Positions 18,531-42,766 of a stretch of 64,000 nucleotides of DNA are shown here, piece after piece. The stretch is from a bacterium (lineage in GTDB: Bacteria > Elusimicrobiota > Elusimicrobia > Elusimicrobiales > UBA9959), in NCBI GenBank assembly GCA_021786295.1, contig JAJYNO010000026.1, positions 124,001-188,000 on the forward strand, given 5' to 3'. The translations under genes and the position numbers were made by a program. Under the pieces are notes generated by a model. That model was not told the DNA's origin, searched no databases, and worked only from the letters and a program-made list of their open reading frames with translations. The number at the start of each line of letters is the position of its first letter. Position 1 is the first letter of the stretch.

Positions 18531-18601
18531 ACACTAATGGGCGGCTGTTTCAATAACAGATTTGTTACGGCGCGGGGAAAGAACGCCGGCGCGCCTTTTG
18601 A

Positions 18602-18607
18602 TATAAT
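18602..18607 (+). promoter_or_regulatory. -10 element (TATAAT) of the motor-like operon
   Basis: A perfect TATAAT lies 46 nt before the ATG at 18654. The predicted leader of about 40 nt contains GGGGGAAA as a distant ribosome site. No clear -35 box is seen, which leaves room for an activator. Confidence 0.55.
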
Positions 18608-18653
18608 ATCCCGTTGTAACGCCACACAAGACAAGCGGGGGAAACGTTCCGTT

Positions 18654-22318: not shown

Positions 22319-23202
22319 GAAGTCTCACGCTTACGGTTCTGATGCTGGCAGCGCCGGCCGCGGCCGCGCCCCCCCGGGACCAGCCGCTCGACGCCGACCT
22401 GAAGGGCTACTACGACAAGGCCTTCACCTATTACGTGGACGGCGACTATCAGAAGGCCATAGAGCAGTGGAACATGGTCCTGCGGGAGGACCCGAAGCAG
22501 ACCACGGCCAGGAACATGATAGACGAAGCCCGGAGAAAAATGGCCGGCTCCGCCGGGAAGCTGAAGAACGAGTTCATGGGTCTGGTCGACCGGGGCCGCT
22601 ACCAGGACGCTCTGCTCAAGCTGGAGGAGCTCCTCGCCACCGACCCGACTAATCCGTATTACCTCCGCGCCCAGTCCAGGCTGCAGCGGATCGCGGGGAC
22701 GGTCAGGGCCAGCCGGCGCTCCGCGGCCTGGCGCGCGGCGGAGAAGGGGATCAGCGCCTGGCTGGGCGGCGAAGAGGACCTTCCCTTCGCCTACGACGCC
22801 CTGCGCTACGCCGAGGAGCTGGCCCCCGCGGAAAAGGCCTTCCCCAGCCTGGTGGCGGACCTGGAGAGGGAGTCCCCGCAGCTGAAGCTCAACGACACGA
22901 AGCCCCCCGGCACGCCCGTCCTGGAACACAAGAAGGACCTGGCGCTGCAGGATATCTACGACACCAAATACTATCTGGCGGTAAAGGAACTGGAAGAGGT
23001 GCTGAGGCTGGCGCCAGACGACCTGACGGCCCTGAAGCGCCTCGGCTCCGCCTATCTACAGCTCAAGGATTATCCCCGCGCCCGGCGCGCGTGGCAGAAA
23101 GCCCTCCGCCTCTCGCCAGACGACGACCAGCTCAAGCAGTACCTCGCCGCGCTGGACAGACTGAAGCGGCCGGCCGGCGGCTCCGCCGGCGGGGCCAGGT
23201 AG
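22315..23202 (+). CDS. Exported TPR protein of the motor-like operon
   Basis: The 295-aa protein has a short signal peptide (MRSLTLTVLMLAAPAAAA). N-terminal TPR-like helices follow (YYDKAFTYYVDGDYQKAIEQW; GRYQDALLKLEELL), then a middle helical region and two C-terminal TPRs (TKYYLAVKELEEVLRL; YLQLKDYPRARRAWQKAL). It is predicted to be periplasmic. It would be a candidate scaffold or bushing around the MotB/FliF-like parts, comparable in principle to periplasmic TPR helpers in other envelope machines; this is inference. It overlaps MotB 2 by ATGA, with GGAGG 12 nt upstream. A strong GC hairpin is embedded in its last codons. Confidence 0.85.
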   Translation: MRSLTLTVLMLAAPAAAAPPRDQPLDADLKGYYDKAFTYYVDGDYQKAIEQWNMVLREDPKQTTARNMIDEARRKMAGSAGKLKNEFMGLVDRGRYQDALLKLEELLATDPTNPYYLRAQSRLQRIAGTVRASRRSAAWRAAEKGISAWLGGEEDLPFAYDALRYAEELAPAEKAFPSLVADLERESPQLKLNDTKPPGTPVLEHKKDLALQDIYDTKYYLAVKELEEVLRLAPDDLTALKRLGSAYLQLKDYPRARRAWQKALRLSPDDDQLKQYLAALDRLKRPAGGSAGGAR

Positions 23203-23211
23203 TCTGCCTGC

Positions 23212-25128
23212 CTAGAAAGAATAATTATAGCGGGTGAGGAGGTTGAGGCTGGTGCCTGTATTGGCCGTGCAGACCTTGTCCGTCCTTGAGACGCCGCCTA
23301 CCCCGAAAGTGAACCTGGAGTTCTGGCTGCTGACCCAGACCGTCTCCACGTTCACCGACAGGGAACTGTTCCTGGCAGGGGTCTGGACGGAATCGTTCCT
23401 GGCCGAGGTAAGCGTGACCCAGCACTGCACGGCCATCGCGCGCCGGGGCATGGCGTAGGAGACGTTCCCGGTCACGCTGGTGTTCCTGGCAGTGGAGGAG
23501 TCCACCTTGTCCCTGGTGCCGGAATCCACCAGCCCGGCGGACAGGTTCAGCACCCTGGAGAGCGGGAAGTTGGAGTTGAACGAGAACAGGGAAGTGCTGA
23601 GGTCGTGCGACAGGTGAGTATTGTCCCTGAACTCGCTCTGCTGCATGCCCGCGGTGAGCGTGTTCCGGCCCAGCGGCTGGGTGACGCTGAAGTTGAGGGT
23701 GGTGGTCCTGTTGTCCTGCACTCCGGCCTGCTTGGCCTTGGCGGCGCTGGAGCTCAGCGACGTGCTGAGCACCGTCCTCCCGCCCAGGCGCAGCATGTTG
23801 CCTACCGTCGCCTGGGTCTGGGTCGTGGTGGTCTTGGCCGGATCTGAATCCAGGTTGTCGGTATAAGTATTCAGGGAGGCGGAAAAGGAGGTCCAATCCG
23901 CCGGGAAGAGGCCGAACTCCGCGTCGACTGTCCGCCTGTCCGGGATCACCGACGGGCTGGCGAAGGAGTAGAAATCCGGAGCGACGCGCGACATCGAGCC
24001 CCTGGCGGTCAGCAGGCCGGACTTGTACTTGAGTTCCTGCCTCCAGGCGGTCCCGCCCACGCCCGCCGCCCCGGACTGCAGGTCGGCCTTATAGGAGCTC
24101 AGCTGATAATCGCTGTTGAGCGAGAAGCGGTCCCAGAAACGCCAGTCGGCGTTCAGGCCGTAGACCAGGTTCTGCTGTGGCTTGACCAGGAGCGTGTCCG
24201 TAGTGATCGCGATGGAATGCAGGTCGTCGCGGCTCAGCACCGCGTCGGCCGAGACGGTAAGGTTCGGGCGGAGGTGCCAGCCCGCCTTGAAGCCTCCTGA
24301 GTAGCGGGCGTACCTCCCCCCGTCGCTGAGGCCGGGTTCCTGGGGAGCGACTATTCGCCCTATCAGCGCGGTGACGGAGTAGTCCGCGGTGTTCCGGTCG
24401 TAGGAAACGCCACGCATGCCCTGCCCGTCCATGGAGAGCGGCGTCAGCGACGGGGAGATGTCCCCCGCCGCCAAGGTCCCCCACGGGGCGTAATAATCGA
24501 GCAGCACCACGGTCGGCGTGACCGGCTTGTTGTAGGAGTGGACGATATAGGTGTTGAACAGGAAAGAGGACTGCTTTATCCTGCCTACCAGATTGGCCGA
24601 AGTGATCGCCTGCGACCCGTCCCAGGAATTGTCGCTGGAGTTCTTGTAGGTGAATGAGACGTCCCCGCCGACCTTGAAATCCTGCGGGATCGGCGGGCGC
24701 AGCTCCTTCTCCACCACCTGGAATCCCCTGTAGTCGGTAGCCAGTATCCGCTTGCCGTCCTTGATCAGGAAGACCCGGTAAAGCAGCCGCCGGCCCTGCA
24801 GGTTGTCGGGCACCTGGAACGGCAGCTGCTCCCCCTGGGCCGCGCCCGGGGGCACGTCCTCGTCGGGGGAAAGCGCGTCGGTCTGCGCCAGGAACTTCCG
24901 GCTGTCACCGTCTATCTCGTAGATCTCGGCTATCCAGTAGTACGTGCCCCGCTTCCAGACCGTGGAGCCGGTGTTCACCGCCAGCGTCTGAAGGCGCACC
25001 TCCTCGCCAGCCATCACCGGGTCGGGGGCGGCCACGGTGAACTGGAGGCTGGCGCCGTCGTCGGCGTAGCAGGCGCCGGCGGGAAAGGACGCCAGTAACA
25101 GCAGCGGGAGGAGTCTTTTTTTCAGCAT
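23212..25128 (-). CDS. Putative outer-membrane beta-barrel protein with N-terminal Ig-like domain
   Basis: The 638-aa protein has signal peptide MLKKRLLPLLLLASFPAGACYA and an Ig-like domain (about 25-150; LQFTVAAPDPVMAGEEVRLQ). About 450 residues of alternating amphipathic strands follow, ending in LLTRYNYSF with a C-terminal Phe, a typical BAM recognition end. The strand motif AAGDISPSLTPLSMDGQGMRG resembles segments of large outer-membrane translocon barrels, but I cannot assign a family. It ends 9 nt from the convergent end of the motor-like operon. It is the last gene of the surface cluster, with its own TATAAT box just after the upstream stop. Confidence 0.7.
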   Translation of the reverse strand: MLKKRLLPLLLLASFPAGACYADDGASLQFTVAAPDPVMAGEEVRLQTLAVNTGSTVWKRGTYYWIAEIYEIDGDSRKFLAQTDALSPDEDVPPGAAQGEQLPFQVPDNLQGRRLLYRVFLIKDGKRILATDYRGFQVVEKELRPPIPQDFKVGGDVSFTYKNSSDNSWDGSQAITSANLVGRIKQSSFLFNTYIVHSYNKPVTPTVVLLDYYAPWGTLAAGDISPSLTPLSMDGQGMRGVSYDRNTADYSVTALIGRIVAPQEPGLSDGGRYARYSGGFKAGWHLRPNLTVSADAVLSRDDLHSIAITTDTLLVKPQQNLVYGLNADWRFWDRFSLNSDYQLSSYKADLQSGAAGVGGTAWRQELKYKSGLLTARGSMSRVAPDFYSFASPSVIPDRRTVDAEFGLFPADWTSFSASLNTYTDNLDSDPAKTTTTQTQATVGNMLRLGGRTVLSTSLSSSAAKAKQAGVQDNRTTTLNFSVTQPLGRNTLTAGMQQSEFRDNTHLSHDLSTSLFSFNSNFPLSRVLNLSAGLVDSGTRDKVDSSTARNTSVTGNVSYAMPRRAMAVQCWVTLTSARNDSVQTPARNSSLSVNVETVWVSSQNSRFTFGVGGVSRTDKVCTANTGTSLNLLTRYNYSF

Positions 25129-25147
25129 TGGAAGCAGAAGCCCATTA

Positions 25148-25153
25148 ATTATA
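25148..25153 (-). promoter_or_regulatory. -10 element (TATAAT) before the outer-membrane barrel gene
   Basis: TATAAT on the minus strand begins 12 nt after the stop of the Kelch/Fn3 gene and lies 19 nt before the barrel ATG. It predicts a leader of about 12 nt and would let the barrel be transcribed apart from the long surface operon. Confidence 0.45.
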
Positions 25154-25165
25154 TGTTTTTTGCCT

Positions 25166-28100
25166 TTACCTGATAACGGCGAACTTCTTCACGGCTTTTC
25201 CCGTGGCGCCCGTCGAATCGTCCCTGACGCGCAGGATGTAGAGATAGACCCCGGGGGCTATCCCGTCGCGCGCCACGTCCCAGGTGACGATATACCCCAC
25301 GGAGTACGGGGCCCTGCTGTACGAATCCAGGGTCTTCACCAACCGGCCTGTTATGTCGAAGATCTGCACCGTCGCGGTGAACGCTGCCGCCGACGGGGCG
25401 AAATGGAAGTTGACCGTAGTTCTGGCCGGATTCGGATAAGCGTAAACATCGCCCTTGTCGAAGAGGTCGAACTTCGGGGAGAAGACCAGCCGCTGGCCGG
25501 GCGAGAGCGTGACGGTCTCCATCCGGCTGAAGGCCGTGCCGTTGAAGACGCGCAGCCCGTAGGTCCCCGGCAGCAGGTTGGGCACCGTGAAGGCCCCGGA
25601 GGCGTCGGTGAAGGCGGCCCCGATCCGCCGCCCGCGGCTGTAGACCTCCACGAAGGGCGGCGAACCCTCGGAGGAGGAGACCTCGCGGGTGGTATAGCGG
25701 GTTTCGGCCGGGCGGATCCCGGAGGCCGGCAGGTAGCCGGACGGGATGACGCCGGAGACGGAGGCCAGCTGGTAGGCGACGCTCAGCCTGAAATCCACCC
25801 CGGAGGAGCCGTTGAGGACCGAATCCTTGGAGACGGAACTCTCTATATCCTCGGCGGTCCAGGCCGCCCTGACGGTGAGGTAGAGCGAATTAAGGCCTGG
25901 GATGGAATAACGCCCGAAAGCGTCGGTGTAGTCCGTGCCCTCCAGGGCCCCGGCCTGGCCGAAGGCCTGAACCAGGACCCCGGTGATGGGCTGCGTGGAG
26001 GCGTCCAGCACGCTGCCGGAGAGCGCGCCGCTGCCGGCGGAACCGGGCGGAGCCGACGCTTCGTTCGAAGGAGGCGACCAGTTGCCGGCGTCGTCCTGCG
26101 TCCAGAGCGTGAAGTAGCAGGTCACCCCCGGCTCCAGCGAATTGACGGTGAACTGCTGGGTGGAGCCGGCCGTGACAGCGGAGGTCGTTATGCTGATCTG
26201 CGCCGCAGCAGTGGAGACCCAGGCCCCGCTGTAGGTCGAGTACGCCACCTTGTAGGCCCCGGACAGCAGGTAGCCGGACGCGCCGTTGTCCCCGGCGCTG
26301 CGCCACAGCAGGGTCACGGCCCCCGGGTAAGCCCCGGGGGCGGCGGCCAGGTCCGCCGTGGCCGGCGGCGGGGTCTCGTCCAGGTAGGTAAAGGTGGCGC
26401 CGGAGACGAAGAACTCCCCAGCGTTAGGCGGAGTCGCGGCGTCGAAGGCGCGCACGGTCGCGTAATACGAGGCGCCGTCGGCCAGGGAATCGCGCAGGTA
26501 GGGCGGGAAGGTCCAGGTCCAGAATTCCGTGGTGCCGGCCGCCAGCGGGACCGGCCCGCTACCCCATGACGACAGGGAGGCGTTCCACCATTTTCCGTCG
26601 GAGAGGCGCTGCAGCGCCGCCTCCACGGACGTCAAACCGGAAACGGGGTCTGCCGCGGTCCCGCTTATCGAGACGGCCGAAGGCGCGGAGGCCCCGGCCG
26701 CGGGATAAAGGACCGCGGCCGAAGGCGGCTCGGAGTCGAAGGTGAACGTGCGCGTGTCGAACACCTGCGAATAATCCCCCGCCGAATCCGAGGACCTGGC
26801 CACTACGGCGTACTCCCGGCCGTTCACCAGAGGCAGGCCGCTCAGGGTCAGCGTGAAAGAGCTCGCCTGCTGCGAGGCGTCCTGCCAGACCGCCGACGCA
26901 GAGAGGAAAGCGCTCCCGTCGTAGTAGAGGCCGGTGTAGAGGTCCCTGAGATAGAGCTCCGTGCCCAGCACCGGGTGGCCGTTGGTCTCCGCGGTAGTTC
27001 CCGACACGGCCGTGAAGGTGGAAAGGTACATGGCGGACGGCGAGGAGATATAGACCACCGGGCCCGAGACGTTCTTCGCCACGGCGAACGCGTCGAGAAG
27101 CGTGGTCGTGGACCCGGCCACGTCCACGGCCCGGAGGCTGAAATAGTTGGAAGCGGCGTTGGCCAGCTGGTTGAAGCTGTAGGAGAGCGCGGGAGCGTAC
27201 CAGGTGGCGCCGGCGGCCAGCGGGCCGATATCGGTCCACGGGATCACGTTCCCGTCGGCGAAGCCTTTATCCGTGCTGACGCTGAACTGCGCCTTCTGCA
27301 GGCCGGAGAGGCCGTCCGAGAAGCTCAGCCCGGTGGCGTCCCCCGGATAATCCGCGAACCAGGCCGAGGAAACGGAATAGGTCGAGACGACCGCGGGCGG
27401 CACGGCGTCCTTCAGGACGGAGAAGGTGTCGGCCAGCACGGTGTAGTTGGGCGGGCTGGCGTTGTCGTAGACGCGCACCGAGATGTAGTTTGACGCCCCG
27501 TCCAGCATGGAATCCCAGACCGTCTCCGGGATAGTCCAGGGAACGTCGTAGGAAGGCTGGTCTATGGCCGTGACCGCGTCCATCCAGGGAGTGAACGGCC
27601 GGCCTGGAACGGTGGAGACCTGCAGCTGGAACTTGGACAGGCCGGAAGCCCCGACGTCGGCGAAATAGATGTGGCACAGGAAGGTGTTGGTGCTCTTCCA
27701 GCCCTGGAAATCCGGCTGCTGGTCGTTTATGGTCGGACTGTCCACGTCCAGGGTCGGGTCGAACGTGGTGCGGACAGGCGGCAGCGCGGCGAAGCGGGAG
27801 GCGCGGCCGGCCGCGTCCAGCACCCTGACCTCGGCGTAGTAGGTCGTGCTCTGGGAGAGCCCGGTAAGCGTCAGCGAGCTGCCGGACGCGGTGAAGGCAG
27901 CCGAGCCGGAGAAATCCGGCGAGGTGGAGCTGACCAGCTCGTAAAGCGTTCCGGACGGGTTGCCAGCGGGGTCCCAGCTGGCCGTAGCCGAATCCACCCA
28001 GACCCCGAACCACGGGGCCGTGGCGGGGATCGCGGCGTACGTGATGGTGGAGCCGGACAGGGAATAGTCCGTCTCCACGCCGGTCCAGTTGCGGGCCTTG

Positions 28101-29740
28101 GCGCGGAAATAATAGGTCGTGTCCGGCCGCAGCTCCCCGAAATCGGCCGCCGGAGAAGAGTTCCAGCCCGAGGATCTCAGGCCGGAGCTGAAATCCGGAC
28201 TTTCGGCCACCTGCACCAGATAGCCGGCGCCGGGAACCGGAGCGTAGAGCTCGTCCGAAAGAGGAGAAGCTCCGGAGGAGCCGCCGAAGAGATAGAGGCG
28301 GGACCCAGCCAATTCGGCCGCAGCGAATTGCCGCGGGCCGGGCAGCGGCGCCCCCCCTTCCCACGGCGAAAGCCCCTCGGGCGTCACCGTGGTCTGAAAG
28401 ACCTGGGCCTGAGCCGAGTAGCCGTTGTTGCCTCCTATCACGTAGAGGCGGGTGCCGGACGCGGCGGCCTGGTGCCCGTAGCGCGGAGAGGGCAGCGGGG
28501 CGTAATCGGACCAGTGGCCGGACGCGAGATCGTAGGTCCAGACCTCAGAACGGGCGGAAACGCCGTCCTTTCCGCCGGCTATCACCAGTTCCCCGGGCAG
28601 CAGGGTCATCGAGTGGGCGTAGCGCGGGGCCGGCAGCGTAGAGGTGGTCACCCAGGTCTGCAGCGACCCGTCATCCGACAGGTCCGCGTATTCGAGGCCG
28701 GCGAGCACCCCGGAGCCGCTGCTGTACCCACCGGAGACGTAGATCCTGCTCCCCGCCAGGGCGGCGGCCTGGAAATAGGCCGGCACCGGGAGGGAAGCCT
28801 CCCTCTCCCAGCTCCCCGGCGCGCCGGAGGATGAGATATCGGCCGACCAGACGTCGGCCCGGGAACCGTCTGACGCGTAGCCGCCAAGCACATAGAGCCG
28901 GCCCCTGGCCGCCACCGTCTGGTGCCCGTAAAGCCCGGCCGGCATGTACCCCGCCGTCCGCCAGCTCCCTACGGTCCCGTCCTGTGCGACCGGAGCCATG
29001 TACACCGCGCTGGAGAAATAGACCCCGTCAAAGCCGCCGCTCACGTAGACGTAGGTGCCGTAGACCACGGAGGCTTCCCCGTAGAGGGAGCGCGGGAGCT
29101 GCGCCGCTGGCGACGTCCAGCCCTGTATCTGCGGCGGCGGAGCGTCCTGGTAGCCGGCGAAAGAAAGGGAAAGGGTGTTGTGGCCGGCGTCCGACAGGGT
29201 CAGAGCGCCGGTCGACGGGACCACGGCCAGCGTTACCGCCGTGGTAGAGGCCGGCGAGGAATAGTCGCCATCCATGTAGTTGGCTACGGCGAAGGAGTAA
29301 TAGCTGGTGTTCGGGGCGAGCGACTCCACCGGATAGCCGTTCTGGTCGGTGGAATAATAGACCATGTACGGGTCGGCCTCGGCCCACGTGGAGATGAAAA
29401 TGTCGTAAGTGGTTCCGGCCGGCTCGGCGGCAGTGCCGTAAACTACGGTATAACTGCTGACGCCGTCGGGAGAATAAGCGAACGCGGCCGGAGAGGAGAC
29501 CAGGCGCGAATAGAAGCCCGACTCCAGCGCGGACGCGGAGCCGCCGACGATGGACAGTTCGTGAGCCACGGCGGACAGCCCGCCCTGGACCACGGAGACG
29601 CCGGCGGCCTGGCCGGAACTGGCCGACGAATAGTCGTCCGCGTCCCCGAGCACGGTGACGGCGCCAGCCGTTTTGTTCCCGGCCAGGGCCGGCCGGCCCA
29701 GCGCCAGGGCGAGGCAGACCGCGGCCAACAACGTCCTCAT
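25166..29740 (-). CDS. Giant surface protein: Kelch propeller, Fn3 repeats, FlgD-like sorting-type C-terminus
   Basis: The 1524-aa protein has signal peptide MRTLLAAVCLALALGRPALA. An Fn3-like N-terminal part is followed by about six Kelch motifs between residues about 210 and 500 (repeating YVSGG / YVLGG / YVIGGN / YLFGGS with following W-x-L-P-x-P-R), and several Fn3 and Ig-like domains (about 510-1240). Two CarboxypepD_reg-like beta sandwiches come next (TQPITGVLVQAFGQ; DASGAFTVPNLLPGTY). The C-terminus, from YAYPNPARTTVNFHF to KKFAVIR, matches FlgD-like/type IX-like sorting domains and closely resembles the end of the protein at 39053. It is predicted to be cell-surface or secreted. The ligand is unknown. 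Confidence 0.85.
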   Translation of the reverse strand: MRTLLAAVCLALALGRPALAGNKTAGAVTVLGDADDYSSASSGQAAGVSVVQGGLSAVAHELSIVGGSASALESGFYSRLVSSPAAFAYSPDGVSSYTVVYGTAAEPAGTTYDIFISTWAEADPYMVYYSTDQNGYPVESLAPNTSYYSFAVANYMDGDYSSPASTTAVTLAVVPSTGALTLSDAGHNTLSLSFAGYQDAPPPQIQGWTSPAAQLPRSLYGEASVVYGTYVYVSGGFDGVYFSSAVYMAPVAQDGTVGSWRTAGYMPAGLYGHQTVAARGRLYVLGGYASDGSRADVWSADISSSGAPGSWEREASLPVPAYFQAAALAGSRIYVSGGYSSGSGVLAGLEYADLSDDGSLQTWVTTSTLPAPRYAHSMTLLPGELVIAGGKDGVSARSEVWTYDLASGHWSDYAPLPSPRYGHQAAASGTRLYVIGGNNGYSAQAQVFQTTVTPEGLSPWEGGAPLPGPRQFAAAELAGSRLYLFGGSSGASPLSDELYAPVPGAGYLVQVAESPDFSSGLRSSGWNSSPAADFGELRPDTTYYFRAKARNWTGVETDYSLSGSTITYAAIPATAPWFGVWVDSATASWDPAGNPSGTLYELVSSTSPDFSGSAAFTASGSSLTLTGLSQSTTYYAEVRVLDAAGRASRFAALPPVRTTFDPTLDVDSPTINDQQPDFQGWKSTNTFLCHIYFADVGASGLSKFQLQVSTVPGRPFTPWMDAVTAIDQPSYDVPWTIPETVWDSMLDGASNYISVRVYDNASPPNYTVLADTFSVLKDAVPPAVVSTYSVSSAWFADYPGDATGLSFSDGLSGLQKAQFSVSTDKGFADGNVIPWTDIGPLAAGATWYAPALSYSFNQLANAASNYFSLRAVDVAGSTTTLLDAFAVAKNVSGPVVYISSPSAMYLSTFTAVSGTTAETNGHPVLGTELYLRDLYTGLYYDGSAFLSASAVWQDASQQASSFTLTLSGLPLVNGREYAVVARSSDSAGDYSQVFDTRTFTFDSEPPSAAVLYPAAGASAPSAVSISGTAADPVSGLTSVEAALQRLSDGKWWNASLSSWGSGPVPLAAGTTEFWTWTFPPYLRDSLADGASYYATVRAFDAATPPNAGEFFVSGATFTYLDETPPPATADLAAAPGAYPGAVTLLWRSAGDNGASGYLLSGAYKVAYSTYSGAWVSTAAAQISITTSAVTAGSTQQFTVNSLEPGVTCYFTLWTQDDAGNWSPPSNEASAPPGSAGSGALSGSVLDASTQPITGVLVQAFGQAGALEGTDYTDAFGRYSIPGLNSLYLTVRAAWTAEDIESSVSKDSVLNGSSGVDFRLSVAYQLASVSGVIPSGYLPASGIRPAETRYTTREVSSSEGSPPFVEVYSRGRRIGAAFTDASGAFTVPNLLPGTYGLRVFNGTAFSRMETVTLSPGQRLVFSPKFDLFDKGDVYAYPNPARTTVNFHFAPSAAAFTATVQIFDITGRLVKTLDSYSRAPYSVGYIVTWDVARDGIAPGVYLYILRVRDDSTGATGKAVKKFAVIR

Positions 29741-29788
29741 AGCGTTCCCGACTCAGCTCCTCTTCGCGGTCCCATGCTCTGCACGGTC

Positions 29789-32700
29789 CTAATTCAGTTT
29801 CACCACTGTCATAACCCCGCTGGGCGAGTACCCCGAGGCCGAGTATCCGGAAAGCTGCACATAGTCTCCGGCCCCGAGCGCCACCGGATAAGAGATGGTC
29901 AGCGATTCTACGGAGGCGTTATTGTCGCCCAGTCTGGTCTGCATGTACTGCGGGGACGCCGCGCCGTTCTTGTTTATGCCAATGCCGACAAGCGTGGACA
30001 CGGCGCTGCTGAACGACAACATCCCCGAGACCAGGTACATACCCGGGCTGGAAGCCGTGAATTTTCCGGTAGTATAGTCGAACTCGTTCTGCGTGTTGAT
30101 CGTCGGCACACTATAGTAGGTAATGGAGGACCAGCTCCCGGCAGCCAGGGACGCGCCTGAGAACTGGGCCTCCGACATGGACTGCAGAGGCATGCCTACC
30201 ACGCCGCCGCTGGAAACGTTCAGCATCGCGGGCAGCGTGCCGGTGCCCACGCGCAGCACGTATGGGTCCGCCGCGGCCGTATCCGAGATCATCGTCATCG
30301 CGCCGGCGGCCGGCGGAACGCCCATCCCTATCCGCCCGTTCGTCCCGCTGCTGGTCATGTAGACGTTCCCCTCGAAACGGGCGGCGTAGCCGGAGCCGTA
30401 GGAGACGCCCTTGACGGCCGAGGCGTTGCTGGAGGCGGAGCTGAAGCCGTAGACCGCCGCGTCGGTGGCGGCCCCGCCGCTGTCGCTGAAGCCGGAGATG
30501 GCCCCCGCGAAGTCGGAATGCACCTCGAGCTTCACCGCTGGGGACATTGTGCCTATCCCGACCCTGTTGTTGGTGTCCACGTAAAAAGCCGGGGCCGAGA
30601 TCGCCGTGCCGGTGGAGACCCAGAAACCGCCGGCGGCCTCGAACATCACCTGGTCCGGCACGTTGTTCTCCAGGGAACCCGGGGAAGAGTCCTTCCACGT
30701 GAAGGTGCCCATAGCGGTGGAAGAGGACTGATAGCCGGCCGCGAAGGAATACTGGGCGACCGCGGAGTTCTCCAGCCCGCCGGGAACGGAGGAATAATCC
30801 CCGTTAGCATGGTTGTATTTCCCGGCGCCGACGAACGCGCCCTGGCCAGAAGCCTGGTTGTACTGCCCGCCGCCCACGAAGGAAGCCATCCCGGTCGCGG
30901 TATTGGTGGAACCTCCCACTACCGCGGCGTAGCCCCCGTTAGCGTTGTTAGACACCCCGCCCATTACGGCGGAGTATGCGGCGGCGGAGTTGCCCTGGCC
31001 GCCGCCCAGGCTCGCGTACATCCCGGAAGCTCCGTTGCCGGAGCCGCCTCCGATGAAGGCCCCGTTCGCCCCCGACGCGACGGCGTTCATGTAACCGCCG
31101 GAGACGGAGGCGTAGTCGGCGTAGGCGTTATTGTTCTGGCCGCCGGCTATCACCGCGTAGCTGCCGCTGACGACGTTGAAGTCGCCGCCCCCGATCATCG
31201 AAAAAGGCATCTGCACGTCGTTCTGATAACCGCCGCCGATGAACGAATAGGGGGCCGCGGCCTCCACGTAGTTGGTCTCGCCGCCGGCTATGGCGGCGGC
31301 GTTCGACTCGGCCGTATTGTTGGCTCCGCCGCCGATCACGGAATAGTCGCCGCTGGCGACCTGGGCCGGGCCGCTGCGGTAGGTCTGCAGGTCCACAGCG
31401 CCGCTGCCGCGCGGGTTGCCGGCCACGGTTCCGTTGCCGACGCCCGCAGTCTGGACCGCGCCGGCGGTGGAGATGGTGATACCGTCGCCGCGGAAGGCCG
31501 CCGCGAACACGTCGCTGGAAGTATAGATCCCGTAGATCCCGAAACTCGCCGTGCCGGTGGAGGTGTTCACCGTGCCGGCGCCGATGGCCACGCTGCCGGG
31601 CGCGGTGGCGCGCGCGTAGGAGCCCAGCGCGGTGCCGGAGGAATTGGCGTACGAGTACGCTCCGAAGGCGCTGGCGAAGTTCTGATTATTCTGGGAATAA
31701 GCCCCTACGCCGACGCCGTAGCCGGAGTTGCCGACGGCGGACGCTCCCACGCCCACGCCGTAACCGGAGTTGTTAAAAGCGCCAACTCCCACCCCCACGC
31801 CGTTGCCGGAGTTGCCGGAAGCGCCCGACCCGACACCCACGCCGCCGAGGTTGTTGCCGGAAGCGCCGAATCCCACTCCCACTCCGGAGTTGTAGTTATT
31901 AGAGGCGTCATATCCCATCCCCACGCCATAGCTGTAGTTGTCGTAGGTATCGGAGCCTATGGATATCCCATAGGCGTAGTTGCTGCCGCCGGTGCCGGCC
32001 GGCACGATGGCCAGACTGTCCCCGGCGATGGTTATCGTGGACACTGCGGGCAGGCCGATCCCTGTCAGCCCGGAGCCGTTGCCGTAGAAGTAGCCCTGCG
32101 AGGTCACGGAGGAGACGGCGTTGCCGTTGGAGTCGCGCCAGATCTGCGCGTAAACGTTGGGCGCGGTGCCCGTGGAGACCACGTCCAGAGCGGCCTGAGG
32201 CGCGCCGGTGGAGACGCCCAGCCGCCCGTCGCCGGTCATGAAGACGCCGCGGTTAACGGTGGCGGAAATGGTGGGTATCGTAGAGCCGGTCACCAGGAAC
32301 CCCCCTTTGGCCTTGAAGACGACTCTGTCGTTTACCGAATTATTCAGAAAGTTGCCGCCGCTGTCCTGCCAGGTAAAGGTGTTAGCGCCCGTGGACTGAG
32401 AGGCATAGCCGGCCGCGAAAGAGTACTGGCCCGAGGCGGTATTGTAAGCCCCGCCGGGCACAACGGCGTCAAGCTGGGACGCGGTATTCTCCTCGCCGCC
32501 CCCCACTACGGCATACGTGCCGGAAGCTGCCTGGGCGTTGCTGGTGCGCATGACCTGCAGGTCGATGGCGCCCGAGCCGCGCGGCCCGGCAATAACACCG
32601 CCGACACCCGGGCCCTGCGTCTGCAGGGCGCCCAAAGGCGTTACCAGTATGCCGTTGGCCCCGGAGTAGGGCGAAGTGGCGATGCGCAGCCCGTCCCCCA

Positions 32701-35470: not shown

Positions 35471-35564
35471 AAAATACCGCCTCCAGAGCGGTCCGCGACC
35501 GGAACACGATCGAACGTTCAAATAAACGCGGGGGCCGCGCTTGTTTCAACGCCGAAGATCCGGC

Positions 35565-36491
35565 CTAGAACTTCATTCCCACCGAGAACCTGTGGGCGGT
35601 CCCCAGGTCGCCGTACGGCAGCATCGCGTAGTCGAACGCGAAACCTGAGTACTCGAAACCGGCCCCGGCGAAGAAGCCGTACATGCCGTCGACGCCGGAA
35701 ACCCCTCCGTAGCCCCGCCCCAGTATCGCGTCCCGCTGGCCGGGGGCCGCAGTCTTATAGCCCAGGCGCAGAGCTATCCCCTCGAGGCCCTTGTACTCCG
35801 CGCCCGCCATCAGGGCCGCAGGCCCGTCGTTGGGGAACTCGGCGTCCAGCGCCAAGAGCAGCCGCGGGGCCGCGAAATCAGCCGCGGCTCCGGCCTTCAG
35901 CTTCAGCGGCAGCGGGAAGCTGTCGTCCTCGAACCTCACGCGCGTGCCGAAGTTGAGGAGGGCCGCCCCCAGAGAATAGGGGGTGCCGCGGAACCTGTAG
36001 AGCAGTCCCAGATCGGCCGCCAGCGACGTGGCCCCGCTGGACTTTATCGTCTGGCTTATAACCTTGCCGCTCACGCCGGCCTCCAGCCGCCCGAGGGAGA
36101 AGCCCCTGGAGAGCTGCGCCGCCACGTCCCTGGCCGTGAAGTTCCCGGTAGGATTGGCGTAGACGTCCCGGCCCTCCAGTTCGCCGGCGGAGAAATAGGT
36201 CAGGGCGGCGGCGTAGGGCCTGCGCATGAAGACCGCCTGGGAGACGGAAGTCCCCTCCAGGTGGGCCGCGTAGGCCAGGTCCAGCCGTTTCCCGGCGTCC
36301 CCCGAGGCCAGGCCGGCCGGGTTGTAGTAGGCGCAGGAGGGCCCCTGCGCGACGGCCGTATATGCCTCTCCCATGCCCAGGGCCTTCGCGCCGAAGCCCA
36401 GGTTCAGGAACTGCGCCGCCGCGGTCCCGGCCGCGCCGGCCCGCGCGGCCGGGACCGCGAGCAGCGCGGCCAGCACTATTCCCGCTCTCAT
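35565..36491 (-). CDS. PorV/PorQ-family (UPF0164) outer-membrane protein, copy 2
   Basis: The 308-aa protein has signal peptide MRAGIVLAALLAVPAARA. The family opening follows: AAQFLNLGFGAKALGMGEAYTAVAQGPSCAYYNPAGLASG. A beta-rich barrel ends DYAMLPYGDLGTAHRFSVGMKF. It is the smallest of the three copies. It lies inside the surface cluster, 28 nt after the FecR-domain gene and 94 nt before the YadA-head adhesin, and GGAGGGG precedes the ATG. By analogy with PorV of type IX secretion it may help bring the neighbouring exported proteins to the surface, but no Por core gene is seen here. Confidence 0.85.
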   Translation of the reverse strand: MRAGIVLAALLAVPAARAGAAGTAAAQFLNLGFGAKALGMGEAYTAVAQGPSCAYYNPAGLASGDAGKRLDLAYAAHLEGTSVSQAVFMRRPYAAALTYFSAGELEGRDVYANPTGNFTARDVAAQLSRGFSLGRLEAGVSGKVISQTIKSSGATSLAADLGLLYRFRGTPYSLGAALLNFGTRVRFEDDSFPLPLKLKAGAAADFAAPRLLLALDAEFPNDGPAALMAGAEYKGLEGIALRLGYKTAAPGQRDAILGRGYGGVSGVDGMYGFFAGAGFEYSGFAFDYAMLPYGDLGTAHRFSVGMKF

Positions 36492-36519
36492 ATCCCCTCC
36501 GCCCGCAGCTTCGCCGCCC

Positions 36520-37251
36520 TCATTTCTTCTTGAGGGAGCCTTCTATCTGCTTCACCGAACCGTCGGGCATCCGGATGGAGGTCTTCAGCGTCTTGCCGGA
36601 GGCGGAGCTGTCCTTGAGCAGCTTTATGAACTTGTCGTAGTCGCTCACCTTGACCTCGTTCTGCCACTTGCCCTCCTCGGACGCGGACATCTTCCTGGCG
36701 GCGGCCGGGGCGGCGTTGGCGCCCGCCACCGTGGTCATCTGGCCGGCGTGCAGTTCCTGTCTGCCCAGCGAATTCTGCACGTCCACGTGCCCTTCGTAGA
36801 CCTTCACGGTCAGCAGGCTGCGCTGCTCTATGTCGGCCTCGGTGCCGCGTACGGCGCAGACCGCGGAAGGCGTGCGCACGTTCAGCTTGGACATCTTGGT
36901 CAGCATGCGGGTCCAGAGCTGGCCGAAAGTAAGCCTCAGCATCTCGCGGAGCTTCCCCTCCCTGGAGACCTCGAAACTGGAGTCCGCGTTGAGACGCACC
37001 TCGGCCCCTCCCTTGGTCACTATGCCGGCCATGGACTCCTTGCCGGTCTTCACCACGTCCCCGCCGTAGAGCATGTCGCTGACGCTCAGCGCGGAGAACT
37101 TTCCCTCCCCGTAACGCTTCACCTGCACGTCGCCGGAGACGTACACGGTCACGGCCGCCGCGGGAGCGCTGTAGGCCCTGGCCCCCCATCCCGCCACGCA
37201 GCACGCCGCCAGCGCCGCACAGGCCGCCGCTCTCCTCATCGTTCTGGTCAT
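36520..37251 (-). CDS. Exported FecR-domain protein
   Basis: The 243-aa protein has signal sequence MTRTMRRAAACAALAACCVAGWGARA. A FecR-type beta domain follows: VTVYVSGDVQVKRYGEGKFSALSVSDMLYGGDVVKTG, AEVRLNADSSFEV, VRTPSAVCAVRGTEADI and VYEGHVDVQN. In this non-sigma-factor context FecR domains occur in periplasmic or surface proteins with LysM or TPR partners, rather than as regulators of iron uptake. The C-terminus is charged and ends in KKK. I chose ATG 37251 with GGGAGGAG directly upstream; the longer frame reaches into the preceding gene. It sits between the CARDB/PrcB-like and PorV-like genes. Confidence 0.85.
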   Translation of the reverse strand: MTRTMRRAAACAALAACCVAGWGARAYSAPAAAVTVYVSGDVQVKRYGEGKFSALSVSDMLYGGDVVKTGKESMAGIVTKGGAEVRLNADSSFEVSREGKLREMLRLTFGQLWTRMLTKMSKLNVRTPSAVCAVRGTEADIEQRSLLTVKVYEGHVDVQNSLGRQELHAGQMTTVAGANAAPAAARKMSASEEGKWQNEVKVSDYDKFIKLLKDSSASGKTLKTSIRMPDGSVKQIEGSLKKK

Positions 37252-37301
37252 AACTCCTCCCGTTCCTCTTACCTGCCCGGTCCGCCCCGCGGCTCGCCGG
37301 T

Positions 37302-39041
37302 TCAATCACCCACGTCCAGTCTCGCCAGCGACGCCTTCTCGTCGGAGCGCTTGTAGACGCGGAAAATATAGGGCACCCTGGCCGCGGACGCCCCGGCCGG
37401 GGCCGCGATCTGGTAATAATCGAAGGCTATCCCGTCGTCGGTCCTGCGCCGGCCGAGCAGGCGCACCGCCGCGGCCCGGTCCTCAGAACCAGAGATGACC
37501 CCGACTATCATCGACTCGCCGAAATCCACTTTCGGGACCTCCTCGGAGGAGATAGTCCCCCAGACCTCGGCCCATTGTTTCGAGCCGCGGATCACGAAGG
37601 TGGAGGTCTTTTTTCCCTGCGGCCTGGCGTAGCCGGACCACTCTCCCGGAACGGAGGCATTGACCGGCTCCAGGTCGAAAGAGGTCCCGCCGGAGGAGCT
37701 CTCCCCTGGCTGCTCCCCGGCGGCCGTCGTCTTGGCCTGCTGGGCGGTCGGCTCGGGGGTCTCGGCACCGGAGCCCTCGTCGGCCACCGAGGCGCTGACG
37801 AGCTGCGCGTCGCCGCTTATCAGCGCGGCTATGACCTGCTGCAGTTCGCCCTGGCTGCAGTTGTCGCAGCCAAGCGACTCGAACGTGTAGCCCTGCAGGC
37901 TCTTGGCCGCGTCCGGGCCGAGCCGCTTCAGTATGGCCTGGAAGATCTCGTCGTAACTGAGCTGGGCGCCGGAGCCTCCGGCGGGCTGCCGGGCCCCGGG
38001 AGTGTTCCCGACCAGCAGCGTTTTGCAGTTGTCGGTCATATTGTCGTCGAACAGGTCGGCGCAGGCCACGGCCAGCGCCTGCTCCTGGCCGGGCGGCATG
38101 AAGGCGCTGAAATCCAGCTGCACCGTCTGCCCCGGGGCGAGCGAGACGACGCGCCTGGGGGAGTCCCCCGAAGGAAGGCCCCCCAGCGAGAAGCTCACCG
38201 AGACGTCGGCCTCGGGGGACGACCCCGCATCGGTCAACGAGGCGCTGAAGGAGAGCGGCTTGGAGAGGTCCAGGGCCGGGGAGACCAGGTCCAGCCGAGT
38301 CACCGCCACGTCCCTGGTCAGCGAGGCGGTCTGGCTCTCCATCGAGAAGTTATAGACGCTGCTCTCCGAGATGACGTTGCCTGCGGCGTCCAGCCCCTCT
38401 ATCTTCCAGTAATAGACCTGGTCAGGCACGAGCTTCTGGCGCGGGTCCGTCGGACTCTCCGGATAGGAAGCGGAATTCTCCCCGGAGTTGACCGCTGAAT
38501 AAGGGGCGTTATAAAGGCCGGGGTTGTCCGCCACCGTCAGCCGGTAGCGGGTGGCGCCGCTGGAGGTCCAGCGGAAGGTAAGAGGGTCGTCGGAAAGCCC
38601 CCTCGCCCCGTAGGGAGGATAGAGCAGGATGATGTTGGGCGAAGAGACCATGAAGGAGGCCGTCTGCGTCACGGTCTCGGTCCCTAGGGAGGCTTTTCCG
38701 CGGAACGTGTAGCCGCCCGGCTGAGTATAGAACTTGCTTATGGATATTCCGGAGAGCTGGCTCTGCGCCCCGCCCGCGGTGCCGGGCGCCGCGTTCCCGG
38801 TCTGGGAGAACACCACCGTTCCGGCGGGGCTCAGGATCTCGAAGGTGAAGGTGACGCTGCCCTGGGTAGTGGTGTTGATGTTCACCTGCTGACGCAGCGT
38901 TATCGTCTCTCCGCTGCTGAAGGCGTAGCGCGGCTGGCCGGAGGAATCGGCCACCGAAGCGCCGGTACCGGTAAGGTTCTGGGCGTAAGCCGCCGGCGGC
39001 AGCAGCAGAAGAAGAAAGACCGCGGTTCTCAGTGCTCTCAT
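37302..39041 (-). CDS. Exported protein with Ig/CARDB-like domains and PrcB-like C-terminus
   Basis: The 579-aa protein has signal peptide MRALRTAVFLLLLLPPAAYA. Ig-like domains follow (about 25-300; PPYGARGLSDDPLTFRWTSSGATRYRL is Fn3/CARDB-like), then a CARDB-like domain (VTRLDLVSPALDLSKPLSF), a Gln/Ser/Glu-rich linker and a C-terminal domain reading WAEVWGTISSEEVPKVDFGESMIVGVISG. That domain resembles PrcB_C, a protease-complex-associated fold. I chose ATG 39041 with GAGGAG 5 nt upstream; an ATGA-overlap start at 39056 is possible. The substrate or partner is unknown. It is the second gene of the surface operon, coupled to the Fn3 protein upstream. Confidence 0.75.
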   Translation of the reverse strand: MRALRTAVFLLLLLPPAAYAQNLTGTGASVADSSGQPRYAFSSGETITLRQQVNINTTTQGSVTFTFEILSPAGTVVFSQTGNAAPGTAGGAQSQLSGISISKFYTQPGGYTFRGKASLGTETVTQTASFMVSSPNIILLYPPYGARGLSDDPLTFRWTSSGATRYRLTVADNPGLYNAPYSAVNSGENSASYPESPTDPRQKLVPDQVYYWKIEGLDAAGNVISESSVYNFSMESQTASLTRDVAVTRLDLVSPALDLSKPLSFSASLTDAGSSPEADVSVSFSLGGLPSGDSPRRVVSLAPGQTVQLDFSAFMPPGQEQALAVACADLFDDNMTDNCKTLLVGNTPGARQPAGGSGAQLSYDEIFQAILKRLGPDAAKSLQGYTFESLGCDNCSQGELQQVIAALISGDAQLVSASVADEGSGAETPEPTAQQAKTTAAGEQPGESSSGGTSFDLEPVNASVPGEWSGYARPQGKKTSTFVIRGSKQWAEVWGTISSEEVPKVDFGESMIVGVISGSEDRAAAVRLLGRRRTDDGIAFDYYQIAAPAGASAARVPYIFRVYKRSDEKASLARLDVGD

Positions 39042-39052
39042 GGTTCTCCTCG

Positions 39053-42000
39053 TCATCTTACCACGGCGAACTTGCGCGTGACCTCCGAGGAATTTCCGCC
39101 GAGGTCGTCGGCCAGGCGGACTGTGTAGAAATAGACGCCGCTGGCCGGGGCCCGGCCCGAGAAATCCCATCTGTACTCGTACGGGGCCGAGCTGTTTATC
39201 TCCCCCTCGGCCTTCTGGACCAGCCGCCCGTCCAGCGAGAAAACGGATATTTTTACCCTCGCGGGGAAAATGCCGCTCTGCACGTGGAACGTGACCCACG
39301 CCGAAGCCGGGTCCGGGTAGGCGTACACGGAAGCCTTGTCCAGCAGCGTCCCGAGCGGCTTCAGCTGCAGGTCCTGGCCAGGGGCCAGGTTTATATCGAG
39401 GGTCTTCCAGGCGCCTCCGTCCGTGACGCGCAGCGTGTATTCCCCGGGGATAAGGTTCCGGATCGCGAACCTGCCGGAGAGATCGGGCAGGGCCCGGGCC
39501 AGCATGCGCGTCCCGCGCCAGAGCTGGGCCTCCCCGCCCGAGGAGGACGGGCGCGGGCCGGCGGCCGCCGAGGCCGGGGAGAGCACGCCGGAGACGCTGG
39601 CCAGCTGGTAGTCCAGCGACAGCACGAAGTCCGCGTCGGCGTAGCCCATCGGGACCTCGTCCTTGGCGACGGCGCTGGCGAAGCCGTCCTGCACCCAGGT
39701 GGCCTGAACGCGGTAAATGCCGTCAGGCAGCGGAGTGAGCGAGAAAGAGCCCAGCCCGTCGTCCAGGGTGTACGAGGTGGCGGCAATTACCCCGTCCCCG
39801 TTAACGGCATCCACGATGACTCCCGTAACCCCGGTCCCGGCAGGGGTCTTGACGGTGCCGGCTATCGTATCGTTCAGGCGGTTCCCCGAAAGCGTGGAGG
39901 AGAGGGACGACGGACCGGACCAGTTTCCGCCGTCGTCCAGCACCCACATCCGCAGGTAGTACGTGGTCTCCGGCTGCAGCCCGGAGAGCGTGTAGGACTG
40001 GTAGGCCCCTGGCTGGACCATCGCTGTGGAGATCAGTACCTGGGCTGTCCCTGTGCTGAAGGCCGCGGCCGCGAAAGTGGAGTACTGCACGGCGTACTGG
40101 CCGTAGGTCAGGGCCAGCTGGCCGCCGTCGTCCCCGGGGAAGGTCCACGCGAGGTCTATGCGCCCCGGAGAGGTGCCGGTGGAAGGGGCGAAGGCCGTCA
40201 CGGCGTCCGGGGGCACCGTGTCCACCCAGGTAAAGGTGGAGCCGGCGGCCCCGAAAGGGGTAACGTTGGGCGGCAAGGCGGCGTCCTCGGCCACGGCCGC
40301 CACGAAGTAGGACCGGCCGCTGGCTACCGCGCCGCGCAGCCCGGAGCCGGGCGTGAAGGTCCAGGAAGCGCCGGCCGCCGTAGCGCTGGCTACCGGCACG
40401 CCGCCCCAGGAGTCGGTGGCGAAGTTCCACCATTTTCCGTCGGCCAGGCTCTTCACGTAAATATCCACCGCGTAAAGCCCGGCCGGGCCGGAGTCCGCGG
40501 CGGTCCCCTGCACCGTATCCAGGCTGTAGACCGTGGAGCCGGCCGGGAGCGGCGTGGAGACCCAGACCGAGGGAGCCTGCTGGTCCAGCTGGAAGGTCAC
40601 CGACGGGTACGGGGAGGCGGTCAGCAGGCCGGAGGAGTCCCTGGCCCTGGCGGTGAGAGCATATTCCGTCCCCTGCGCGAAAGGGACCGTAGACGCGTCG
40701 TATGACCAGGTCGCAGTGCCGGACGCGTCCAGCCAGACCTGGGAAGCCGAGGAGAAGGAGGCCCCGTCGTAATAGAGTCCCCCGGCCAGCTCCCTCAGGG
40801 AGACCTGCGTCCCGACGGGCGGACTGCTCTCCACCATCGGCGACGCGGTCCCGGAGAAGGCGGTGACGGTGGAGACCCAGGCCCCGCCGGGAGAGGTTAT
40901 GACGACCGGCGGCCCTAAGGTGTTCTTCAGCAGCTTAAACGCGTCGGCGTAGGTCCGCGCGTTGCCGGCCGCGTCCACCGCGCGCACGCTTATGTAGTTG
41001 GTGACCCCGTCGCGCAGCGCGGCGAAGTCCACGCCCCACGGCGCCGCGTAAGAGGGGCCGGGCGAGAACCCGGGCACGGAGGTCCAGGGCAGGATAGCCC
41101 CGTCGGCGGCGCCCGGGACGGCGCTCGCGCTGTAGAGGAACTGCTGCAGCCCGGAAAGGGCGTCGGCGGCCTCCACGTCGAAGACGGGACCGGGGTCGGA
41201 GGAAAGCCAGCCCTGGGGGGAGACGGCGTTGTCGGCCAGCGTCGGCTGGGTGGTGTCGCGCAGAACGTAGAAGGCGTCCGGATAGACCGTGCTGTTGCCG
41301 GCGTTGTCGTAGACGCGCACGGAGACGTAGGTGGTCACGTCCTGCTGTATGGCCGTGAAGACCTGCGGAGGCAGCATCCACGGAGTATTGTATTCGGCCG
41401 CGTCTATGCCCGTGACCACGTCCGTCCAGGTGGAGACGGCGGTCCCGCTGAACGCCGGGCCGGTATCGGCCAGCACCTGGAACCTGGCCAGCAGGGAACC
41501 GTAATCCGAGAACTGCACGTTGTAGGAGCCGCTGACGGAACCGCGCCAGACGTCGTCGCCCGGCTGCAGGTCTATCACGGACGGGGGAACCGTATCGGCG
41601 CCCGACAGCGTAACGGCCGAGCCCAGATAAAGCCAGCCGCTGGTCCTGCCGGCCGAGTCCCGGGCGCGGACGCGAAAATAGAAGAGAGTGGCCGGGTAAA
41701 GCCCCGTTACGGTTAGGGCGGGGCCGGCGGCCCATTGGCGGGGGCCGAAGTCCGTTCCGAGAAAATCCGCGGACGTGGCCACCCCGACGTAATACTCGGT
41801 GTAGCCCGGGTTGCCGTTGGGCGACCACTGCACCGGCACGCTGTCGGGCCCCGGGGAGCCGATGTCGGGCGGATTGTCGGCGGGCGCAGCCGCGTAGGTC
41901 AGCGTTGAACCGAAGGCCGTGAAGGCGGAGTAGGCGCCGCCCCAGCCGTAGGCCGCGGCCCTGAAATAGAAGGTGGTGTTCGGCTGCAGGCCGCCGGCCT

Positions 42001-42766
42001 CGTAATAATTCCCCGGCGTCACGGTTGAGGCGTCGAGACTGGAGAACCCGTCGGTGGAGACCTGCAGCAGGTAGCGGGTCCAGGCCGGGTTGCCGTTGCC
42101 GTCCCAGAACACCGACATGCCGGTAGACCCGACCAGGGCGTAGTCCCCGGCGCCGGGCTGGTAGGGGAGCGTGATCGTCGACAGCGTCACGAAGCCGGAA
42201 TCCTGCCCCCCGGCCCCCAGCGCCCTGACCCGCATGAAATAGGTGGAGTCGGGGTTCAGGCCGGTATAAAGGGCCGTCAGGCCGGTCCCGCTCGAAACGG
42301 AAGTAATTGCGAAGGCGTCGTCCATCGAAACCTCCGCCCAGTACTGCGTGCCGGCCGCGTTATTGCCGGAGTTCCAGCCCAGCGTAAAGCCGGAAGGCCC
42401 CAGGCCCAGCACGGCCGCGCCCTGCGGCTCCTGAGGCGGCGTCAGCGTGGAGACAGGCACGGAGTAGGCGCTGTCCGGTTCGGTGGCGACCTTTACCGTG
42501 AAATAGTAGGTGGCGTTGGAAAAAAGACCGTAATAGCCGGTGGCCTGCTGGCCGAGAGCCAGGGCGGCGCTGGAGAAGAAGGTCGAGAAAGTGGGGTCTT
42601 GCGAGATGGCCGCCCACGGCGTCTCCGAGGACGGGGCGTCGAGCTGCCAAGACACGGAGGCCGAACCCGTGGAAGCGGACACGAACTGGACATTAGCCGG
42701 AACGGCGCCCATTGAGACCCCCGTAAAGATGCCGACAAGAAAGCCAACCCAAACGGCCAGTTTCAT
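39053..42766 (-). CDS. Large Fn3-repeat surface protein with FlgD-like sorting-type C-terminus
   Basis: The 1237-aa protein begins with signal peptide MKLAVWVGFLVGIFTGVSMG. Four to five Fn3 domains (about 22-390) share the recurrent phrases SSxTYYFRVRA and WSPNGNPGYTEYYV. Ig-like repeats containing WxxxxxDTxxPxxxD follow, then another Fn3 (about 870-985), two CarboxypepD_reg-like sandwiches and a C-terminal domain, YAYPDPASAWVTFHV...VFSLDGRLVQ...SGVYFYTVRL...KFAVVR. This architecture and end match the 1524-aa protein at 25166, so the two are paralogues flanking the cluster. It is the first gene of the surface operon, read from a TATAAT 8 nt before its ATG. Confidence 0.86.
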   Translation of the reverse strand: MKLAVWVGFLVGIFTGVSMGAVPANVQFVSASTGSASVSWQLDAPSSETPWAAISQDPTFSTFFSSAALALGQQATGYYGLFSNATYYFTVKVATEPDSAYSVPVSTLTPPQEPQGAAVLGLGPSGFTLGWNSGNNAAGTQYWAEVSMDDAFAITSVSSGTGLTALYTGLNPDSTYFMRVRALGAGGQDSGFVTLSTITLPYQPGAGDYALVGSTGMSVFWDGNGNPAWTRYLLQVSTDGFSSLDASTVTPGNYYEAGGLQPNTTFYFRAAAYGWGGAYSAFTAFGSTLTYAAAPADNPPDIGSPGPDSVPVQWSPNGNPGYTEYYVGVATSADFLGTDFGPRQWAAGPALTVTGLYPATLFYFRVRARDSAGRTSGWLYLGSAVTLSGADTVPPSVIDLQPGDDVWRGSVSGSYNVQFSDYGSLLARFQVLADTGPAFSGTAVSTWTDVVTGIDAAEYNTPWMLPPQVFTAIQQDVTTYVSVRVYDNAGNSTVYPDAFYVLRDTTQPTLADNAVSPQGWLSSDPGPVFDVEAADALSGLQQFLYSASAVPGAADGAILPWTSVPGFSPGPSYAAPWGVDFAALRDGVTNYISVRAVDAAGNARTYADAFKLLKNTLGPPVVITSPGGAWVSTVTAFSGTASPMVESSPPVGTQVSLRELAGGLYYDGASFSSASQVWLDASGTATWSYDASTVPFAQGTEYALTARARDSSGLLTASPYPSVTFQLDQQAPSVWVSTPLPAGSTVYSLDTVQGTAADSGPAGLYAVDIYVKSLADGKWWNFATDSWGGVPVASATAAGASWTFTPGSGLRGAVASGRSYFVAAVAEDAALPPNVTPFGAAGSTFTWVDTVPPDAVTAFAPSTGTSPGRIDLAWTFPGDDGGQLALTYGQYAVQYSTFAAAAFSTGTAQVLISTAMVQPGAYQSYTLSGLQPETTYYLRMWVLDDGGNWSGPSSLSSTLSGNRLNDTIAGTVKTPAGTGVTGVIVDAVNGDGVIAATSYTLDDGLGSFSLTPLPDGIYRVQATWVQDGFASAVAKDEVPMGYADADFVLSLDYQLASVSGVLSPASAAAGPRPSSSGGEAQLWRGTRMLARALPDLSGRFAIRNLIPGEYTLRVTDGGAWKTLDINLAPGQDLQLKPLGTLLDKASVYAYPDPASAWVTFHVQSGIFPARVKISVFSLDGRLVQKAEGEINSSAPYEYRWDFSGRAPASGVYFYTVRLADDLGGNSSEVTRKFAVVR

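Follow-up and report, generated by a model that had tools for sequence, protein, structure and literature searches.

Conserved linkage of a surface-protein cassette to a predicted FliFG-MotAB motor operon in Elusimicrobiota

Gene content of the two operons

The window analysed here is a 64,000-nt stretch (G000:C27:124001-188000) of a 2.3-Mb, 37-contig Elusimicrobiota MAG that is 79% complete. The features under study are listed in Table 1. The genomes used for comparison are mostly MAGs of 63-100% completeness, whose genes were located using a simple gene caller or tblastn. The relatives that carry FliFG are all labeled Elusimicrobia, Elusimicrobiota or 'bacterium' MAGs.

Table 1. Genes of the cassette, the motor operon and the divergent neighboring gene, in window coordinates
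Gene	Position	Strand	Description	Profile match (cut-off)
PorV_up	17440..18471	-	divergent PorV/PorQ-family gene	NF033709 101.9 bits
FliFG	18537..20162 (conserved start 18654)	+	FliF RBM3-like exported domain, then a TM helix and, in the cytoplasm, the FliG M+C domains	FliG_C 42.9 bits
MotA	20184..20966	+	MotA-type stator subunit	PF01618 86.5 bits
MotB1	20988..21662	+	plug and OmpA domain	PF13677, PF00691
MotB2	21659..22318	+	plug and OmpA domain	PF13677, PF00691
TPR	22315..23202	+	exported TPR protein, last motor-operon gene	TPR_2 63 bits
A1	23212..25128	-	Ig-like domain and predicted ~24-strand outer-membrane beta-barrel; the motor's most conserved partner
A2	25166..29740	-	exported protein of 1524 aa with Kelch and Fn3 domains and a T9SS type-A-like sorting domain; variable insert	Kelch 118.6 bits; TIGR04183 29.2 bits (23)
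A3	29789..35470	-	exported YadA-head-like/C1q-like protein; variable insert	C1q 23.5 bits (23.7)
A4	35565..36491	-	PorV/PorQ-family outer-membrane protein, candidate shuttle	NF033709 145.3 bits (90)
A5	36520..37251	-	exported FecR-domain protein	PF04773 51.1 bits (24)
A6	37302..39041/39056	-	exported protein, 579-584 aa; weak Ig/NEW3-like matches	Pfam, sub-threshold
A7	39053..42766	-	exported protein of 1237 aa with Fn3 repeats and, at the C-terminus, a T9SS type-A-like sorting domain; first cassette gene	fn3 69 bits; TIGR04183 25.1 bits (23)

An earlier note on this DNA had described seven exported proteins, encoded on one strand and ending 9 nt from a motor-like operon. This description is accurate: A7 to A1 are all found on the minus strand (23212-42766), their N-termini look signal-peptide-like when judged by eye, and 9 nt separate the end of A1 from the TPR gene. 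The intergenic gaps, previously given as 11-95 nt, amount to about 11-104 nt and vary with the start codon chosen. The ORF 36488-37309 of the supplied ORF list is in the wrong frame and overlies the FecR gene. The cassette ORFs are regarded as real genes because orthologues of each core member recur in an unchanged order in many genomes; A6 orthologues occupy a fixed place in the cassettes and those of A7 likewise come first in the core. A2 and A3 are the most variable surface genes of the cassette.

Profile searches confirmed the FecR, PorV-like, Kelch and Fn3 labels of the earlier note (Table 1), and A4 falls below the cut-offs of both the PorV and the PorQ equivalog profiles. The YadA-head/C1q label of A3 stands in part, as the GVGVG repeat is present with a period of 14 residues and the C1q match is marginal. 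Two labels were dropped. The tails of A2 and A7, formerly read as FlgD-like, score instead above the cut-off of TIGR04183, the type-A sorting domain of the T9SS, and the CARDB/PrcB identity of A6 is not supported by Pfam, where all matches are sub-threshold.

The outer-membrane barrel label of A1 is consistent with the predicted model (pLDDT 67, pTM 0.50), in which an N-terminal Ig-like domain precedes some 24 long strands, predicted at residues 152-637, and a Phe stands at the end. Structure comparison aligned the barrel with MtrB (Z 18.4, rmsd 6.3) and with the chaperone-usher pores FimD and PapC (Z 16-17, rmsd 3.2-5.4; alignments over 295-375 residues have Z 14-17). The latter resemblance is accompanied by differences, namely 10-13% identity, the N-terminal Ig-like domain and the linkage to a motor, and a Pfam search of A1 gave no match to the usher family. 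Overall, the fold matches (TM 0.42, 8-13% identity) are generic for big barrels. The fold assignment goes no further than a generic large barrel, and on the basis of the model we take A1 to be a large outer-membrane pore or platform rather than a member of the MtrB or usher families.

The motor operon reads FliFG-MotA-MotB1-MotB2-TPR. The FliFG model (mean pLDDT 65.5) contains a periplasmic domain with the pattern alpha-beta-beta-alpha-beta, a single long membrane helix and, on the cytoplasmic side, an ARM-like part. Using Foldseek, it was matched to the middle and C-terminal domains of FliG (1lkv, E 3.4e-8) and weakly to FliF ring-building and SctJ domains (E 6e-4 to 0.05). Four residues of the FliG torque helix (G450, Q457, E458 and L461) are invariant in 40/40 homologues, the TM aspartate is present in 40/44 homologues of MotB1 and 36/44 of MotB2, and MotA displays 80-99% identity within the genus. 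The operon thus shares with the flagellar motor a FliG M/C fold with a conserved torque helix, a FliF-like periplasmic RBM, MotA, and MotB with plug and OmpA domains. It differs in that a single chain with an exported N-terminus carries both the FliF-like and the FliG domains, in its two MotBs, and in being linked to surface proteins and a barrel of the outer membrane. FlhA, the core component of the flagellar export gate, is required for a flagellum. No FlhA match was found in 10 genomes, using a search whose control matched in E. coli, B. subtilis, C. vibrioides and T. maritima. An exported protein of about 416 aa (VTFDQxGSV...) is conserved upstream of FliFG in many relatives, where it is placed between PorV_up (or ispA) and FliFG (L032, L033, L034, L037 and L038); it is missing from the window genome.

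Conservation of the linkage in the genus and the phylum

The distribution of the two operons was compared among 32 genomes of the genus. Both are present in 26 genomes, both are absent from 6 and neither is ever found alone. FliFG gave a strong match in 25 of the 32 genomes. The 26th, G027, carries MotA-MotB1-MotB2-TPR at a contig start, adjoining A1; its reading as a cassette without a motor was rejected, since the motor is present and lacks FliFG only because the contig ends there. Two other candidates for discordance, G033 and G034, taken as motors without a cassette, were unusable as FliFG lies at the contig edge. A1 occurs in exactly the 26 motor-bearing genomes, with one full copy each. 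Among the six genomes devoid of both operons (G001, G016, G020, G023, G026 and G029), G020 and G026 reach a completeness of only 63-66%, and the remaining four display an intact empty site in which PorV_up is directly followed by the LUD or pul genes normally located beyond A7. PorV_up therefore persists where the motor and the cassette are absent. Independent occurrence of the two operons, the refutation that the earlier note had named, was thus sought and not encountered in the genus. The Fisher probability of this 26/6/0 distribution is 1/906,192 when descent is ignored. Once descent is counted, the pattern is not significant by itself, as only two independent contrasts fall on well-supported branches of a species tree resting on one gene, DXS; an independent-pairs sign test has too few contrasts for significance, and hence no power.

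The position of the cassette is variable within the genus: A1 is adjacent to the motor in 16 of the 26 genomes, found elsewhere in 6 and hidden by contig ends in 4. The six relocated cassettes are retained in one copy each and preserve the core order A7-A6-(A5)-A4-A1. A2 and A3 form an insert between A4 and A1 that is specific to clade alpha and absent from clade-beta cassettes. These clades correspond to a well-supported split in the A1 tree: clade alpha is motor-adjacent and carries A2, and clade beta lacks A2 and is either adjacent or elsewhere. G018 carries an alpha and G028 a beta cassette, yet the two form a pair in the DXS tree; whole cassettes were thus replaced, and in no case was the motor left without one.

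The phylum was then covered with an A1 profile search, which matched 59/294 genomes. Flanking sequence was retrieved for 36 A1 loci from outside the genus, of which 5 end at a contig edge and 31 are evaluable; L209, L210, L213, L215 and L217 duplicate L114, L112, L117, L118 and L122, and each of these loci was counted once. Motor genes adjoin A1 in 28 of the 31 evaluable loci, with A1 identity decreasing from 63% to 26%, and the stretches fetched around A1 in L228, L230 and L232 contain no motor. Conservation as neighbors, the check proposed in the earlier note, is therefore observed well beyond the genus. Near relatives display the convergent arrangement of the window. In other families, cassette and motor genes are found on one strand, as in L231, whose order is Fn3CTD-CARDB-FecR-X-A1-FliFG-MotA-MotB1-MotB2-TPR with successive gaps of -4, -13, 13, 66, 3, 2, 23, 1 and -4 nt, and in L229 (Kelch-CARDB-FecR-FliFG-MotA-MotB1-MotB2-TPR-A1), where TPR and A1 overlap by 4 nt. 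The order A1-FliFG-MotA-MotB1-MotB2-TPR, likewise on a single strand, is found in L234, L239 and L243. The FecR gene A5 also adjoins motor genes in other families, and the TPR protein is kept with the motor across the phylum.

Adjacency that persists through changes of orientation over such distances is predicted by a shared machine. Two separate systems, placed side by side by chance or through shared synteny, would be consistent with the six genus genomes in which the cassette sits elsewhere. This explanation is highly improbable given that no genus genome is discordant, that the adjacency recurs in different families and classes despite changes in orientation, and that the genes share same-strand operons; a mere chance neighborhood was rejected on the phylum-wide adjacency. 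That the surface operon belongs with the motor operon is strongly supported by their co-presence and co-absence, co-retention, phylum-wide adjacency and single-strand operons. Comparison of the genome sequences thus establishes the two operons as one conserved genetic module.

Of all the cassette members, A1 shows the tightest association with the motor. This association, together with the alignment of a large barrel bearing a periplasmic Ig-like domain to usher pores and MtrB, would fit a reading of A1 as an energized pore, through which the motor drives the transport of a polymer, a nutrient or fiber subunits in a TonB-, Lpt- or usher-like manner. The generic level of the fold matches argues against it, and it leaves the co-operonic CTD/Fn3 surface proteins unexplained; we consider it improbable, slightly more so than the export reading discussed below.

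T9SS-related parts and similar motor loci

In Bacteroidota, a PorV shuttle collects type-A CTD cargo, and GldLM provides the power for secretion as well as for the movement of SprB (PMC12618676, PMC8986121). The roles proposed below for the cassette are based on this T9SS/gliding precedent, which serves as their basis and not as a test. The window genome encodes 13 proteins, A2 and A7 included, with a type-A CTD (TIGR04183) above cut-off. It also contains, outside this locus, an SprA-like homologue of 1795 aa (G000:C31:35699-41086, L077), matched in three collinear stretches (E 3.8e-41); its score of 140.5 bits falls short of the equivalog cut-off of 200 bits. The T9SS is said to be restricted to Bacteroidota (PMC4793230); the SprA-like protein of Elusimicrobiota lies outside that phylum. 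Nine genomes of the genus contain 22-36 PorV-family genes each, compared with 4-5 in two gut relatives. A further PorV-family gene is located in the window at 60282-61313 (minus strand), beside a CTD-bearing ORF (61315-63999, minus strand) and separate from the cassette. The export route is nevertheless incomplete by these searches, whose controls are weak: in 10 genomes, only the CTD part of NF033707 (PorU) was matched and its catalytic part was not found, with no true PorU control above cut-off, and GldM gave no match in the same number of genomes.

The presence of PorV and CTD genes in the cassette, of an SprA homologue in the genome and the lack of a GldM match could indicate that the motor replaces GldLM on SprA/PorV, powering T9SS-like export of the CTD proteins and not the movement of finished surface proteins. 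The GldM result counts for little, as the GldM control gave no match either. Furthermore, the SprA homologue is encoded outside the locus and is present in all 37 of 37 Elusimicrobiota genomes, including gut relatives without a FliFG match; SprA can therefore do without the motor, and this speaks against a motor simply devoted to secretion. This export reading is consequently judged unlikely.

Other FliFG-MotAB loci in these genomes also adjoin PorV and CTD proteins. One of these (G000:C8:71399-118879, L074-L076) starts with an exported ORF of 12,795 aa bearing a weak, sub-threshold T9SS-type CTD, followed by PorV-TPR, a second FliFG (FliG_C 98 bits, FliG_M 41 bits), a coiled-coil protein, FlbD/SwrD (84 bits), MotA, MotB and a lipoprotein. 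A long CTD-ended ORF is found within about 4 kb of the FliFG paralogue of this type in 7 of the 8 genus genomes checked, and G018 carries two more such loci. A third motor type (L132, G018:C15, 4316-19999) combines a long CTD-ended ORF, a PorV-like protein, a FliF/FliG-like protein, MotA, two MotBs and a second PorV. In a fourth (L131 and L134; G018:C11 and G009:C4), MotA/MotB are divergent from a FliFG-like gene and accompanied by a PorV-like protein, a short protein with the type-B-CTD-like motif 'ITPNGD', and sensor and response-regulator genes. A PorV-family gene lies within 10 kb of about 22/33 flagellar-type MotA genes versus 1/14 of the ExbB/TolQ type, counts that are not independent since the loci are orthologous between genomes.

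A putative trans-envelope machine

A trans-envelope motor acting through A1 on the surface proteins is the best explanation of the module, and one that we consider fairly likely from the gene content and its conservation. The mechanism can be briefly outlined as follows. MotA and the two MotBs would constitute ion-driven, peptidoglycan-anchored stators, and FliFG an inner-membrane ring exposing a FliG torque face, without the flagellar export gate. The periplasm would be bridged by the TPR protein, A5 (FecR) and A6. Force or rotation may then be passed to the A1 barrel, which would move, extrude or present A7, A2 and A3. A7 and A2 would reach the surface via a T9SS-like route involving the SprA homologue and the PorV-family shuttle A4. 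Adhesion and surface motility (gliding) would be the likeliest use.

The earlier note had suggested that such an apparatus was made of parts unrelated to those of known gliding systems. This is partly wrong, as the motor is homologous to that of the flagellum (FliF/FliG/MotAB) and PorV, the CTDs and the SprA homologue are T9SS-related. The module resembles Bacteroidota gliding/T9SS (PMC8986121, PMC12618676) in linking a MotAB-like ion motor to sorted surface proteins and in its type-A CTD and PorV-family proteins, with the SprA homologue elsewhere in the genome. It differs from the Bacteroidota system by a FliF/FliG-type rotor with MotA/MotB instead of GldL/GldM, by the dedicated A1 barrel, and in that the PorU catalytic part and GldM were not found in the searches described above. 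The Agl-Glt gliding machinery of Myxococcus (AglRQS) likewise associates one A-type and two B-type stator subunits with outer-membrane partners and TPR proteins; unlike it, the present module has MotB homologues with OmpA domains and a FliG rotor. Gliding specifically would be a plausible use of the module.

The most detailed version, a non-flagellar FliF/FliG/MotAB rotary motor coupled via a dedicated A1 barrel to exchangeable T9SS-sorted surface proteins, has in our estimate an even chance of being correct. In broader terms, the module points to a so far undescribed machine, driven by ions and working at the cell surface, whose use would probably be adhesion or gliding. Within the searchable open-access literature, no description of Elusimicrobiota motility, of a T9SS or of such a machine in this phylum was found. 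To our knowledge, known FliG-MotA rotors turn flagella. Elusimicrobiota have been described as lacking flagellar genes (PMC7031533).

If correct, this reading would add to the architectures by which bacterial surface adhesins are moved, and would give the FliG-MotA rotor a role outside the flagellum. With FliFG-MotAB tied to a barrel and surface proteins in genomes without FlhA, the flagellar rotor-stator pair would serve another machine, which would bear on the origins of flagella and gliding motors. Elusimicrobiota would gain a testable route to movement or attachment.
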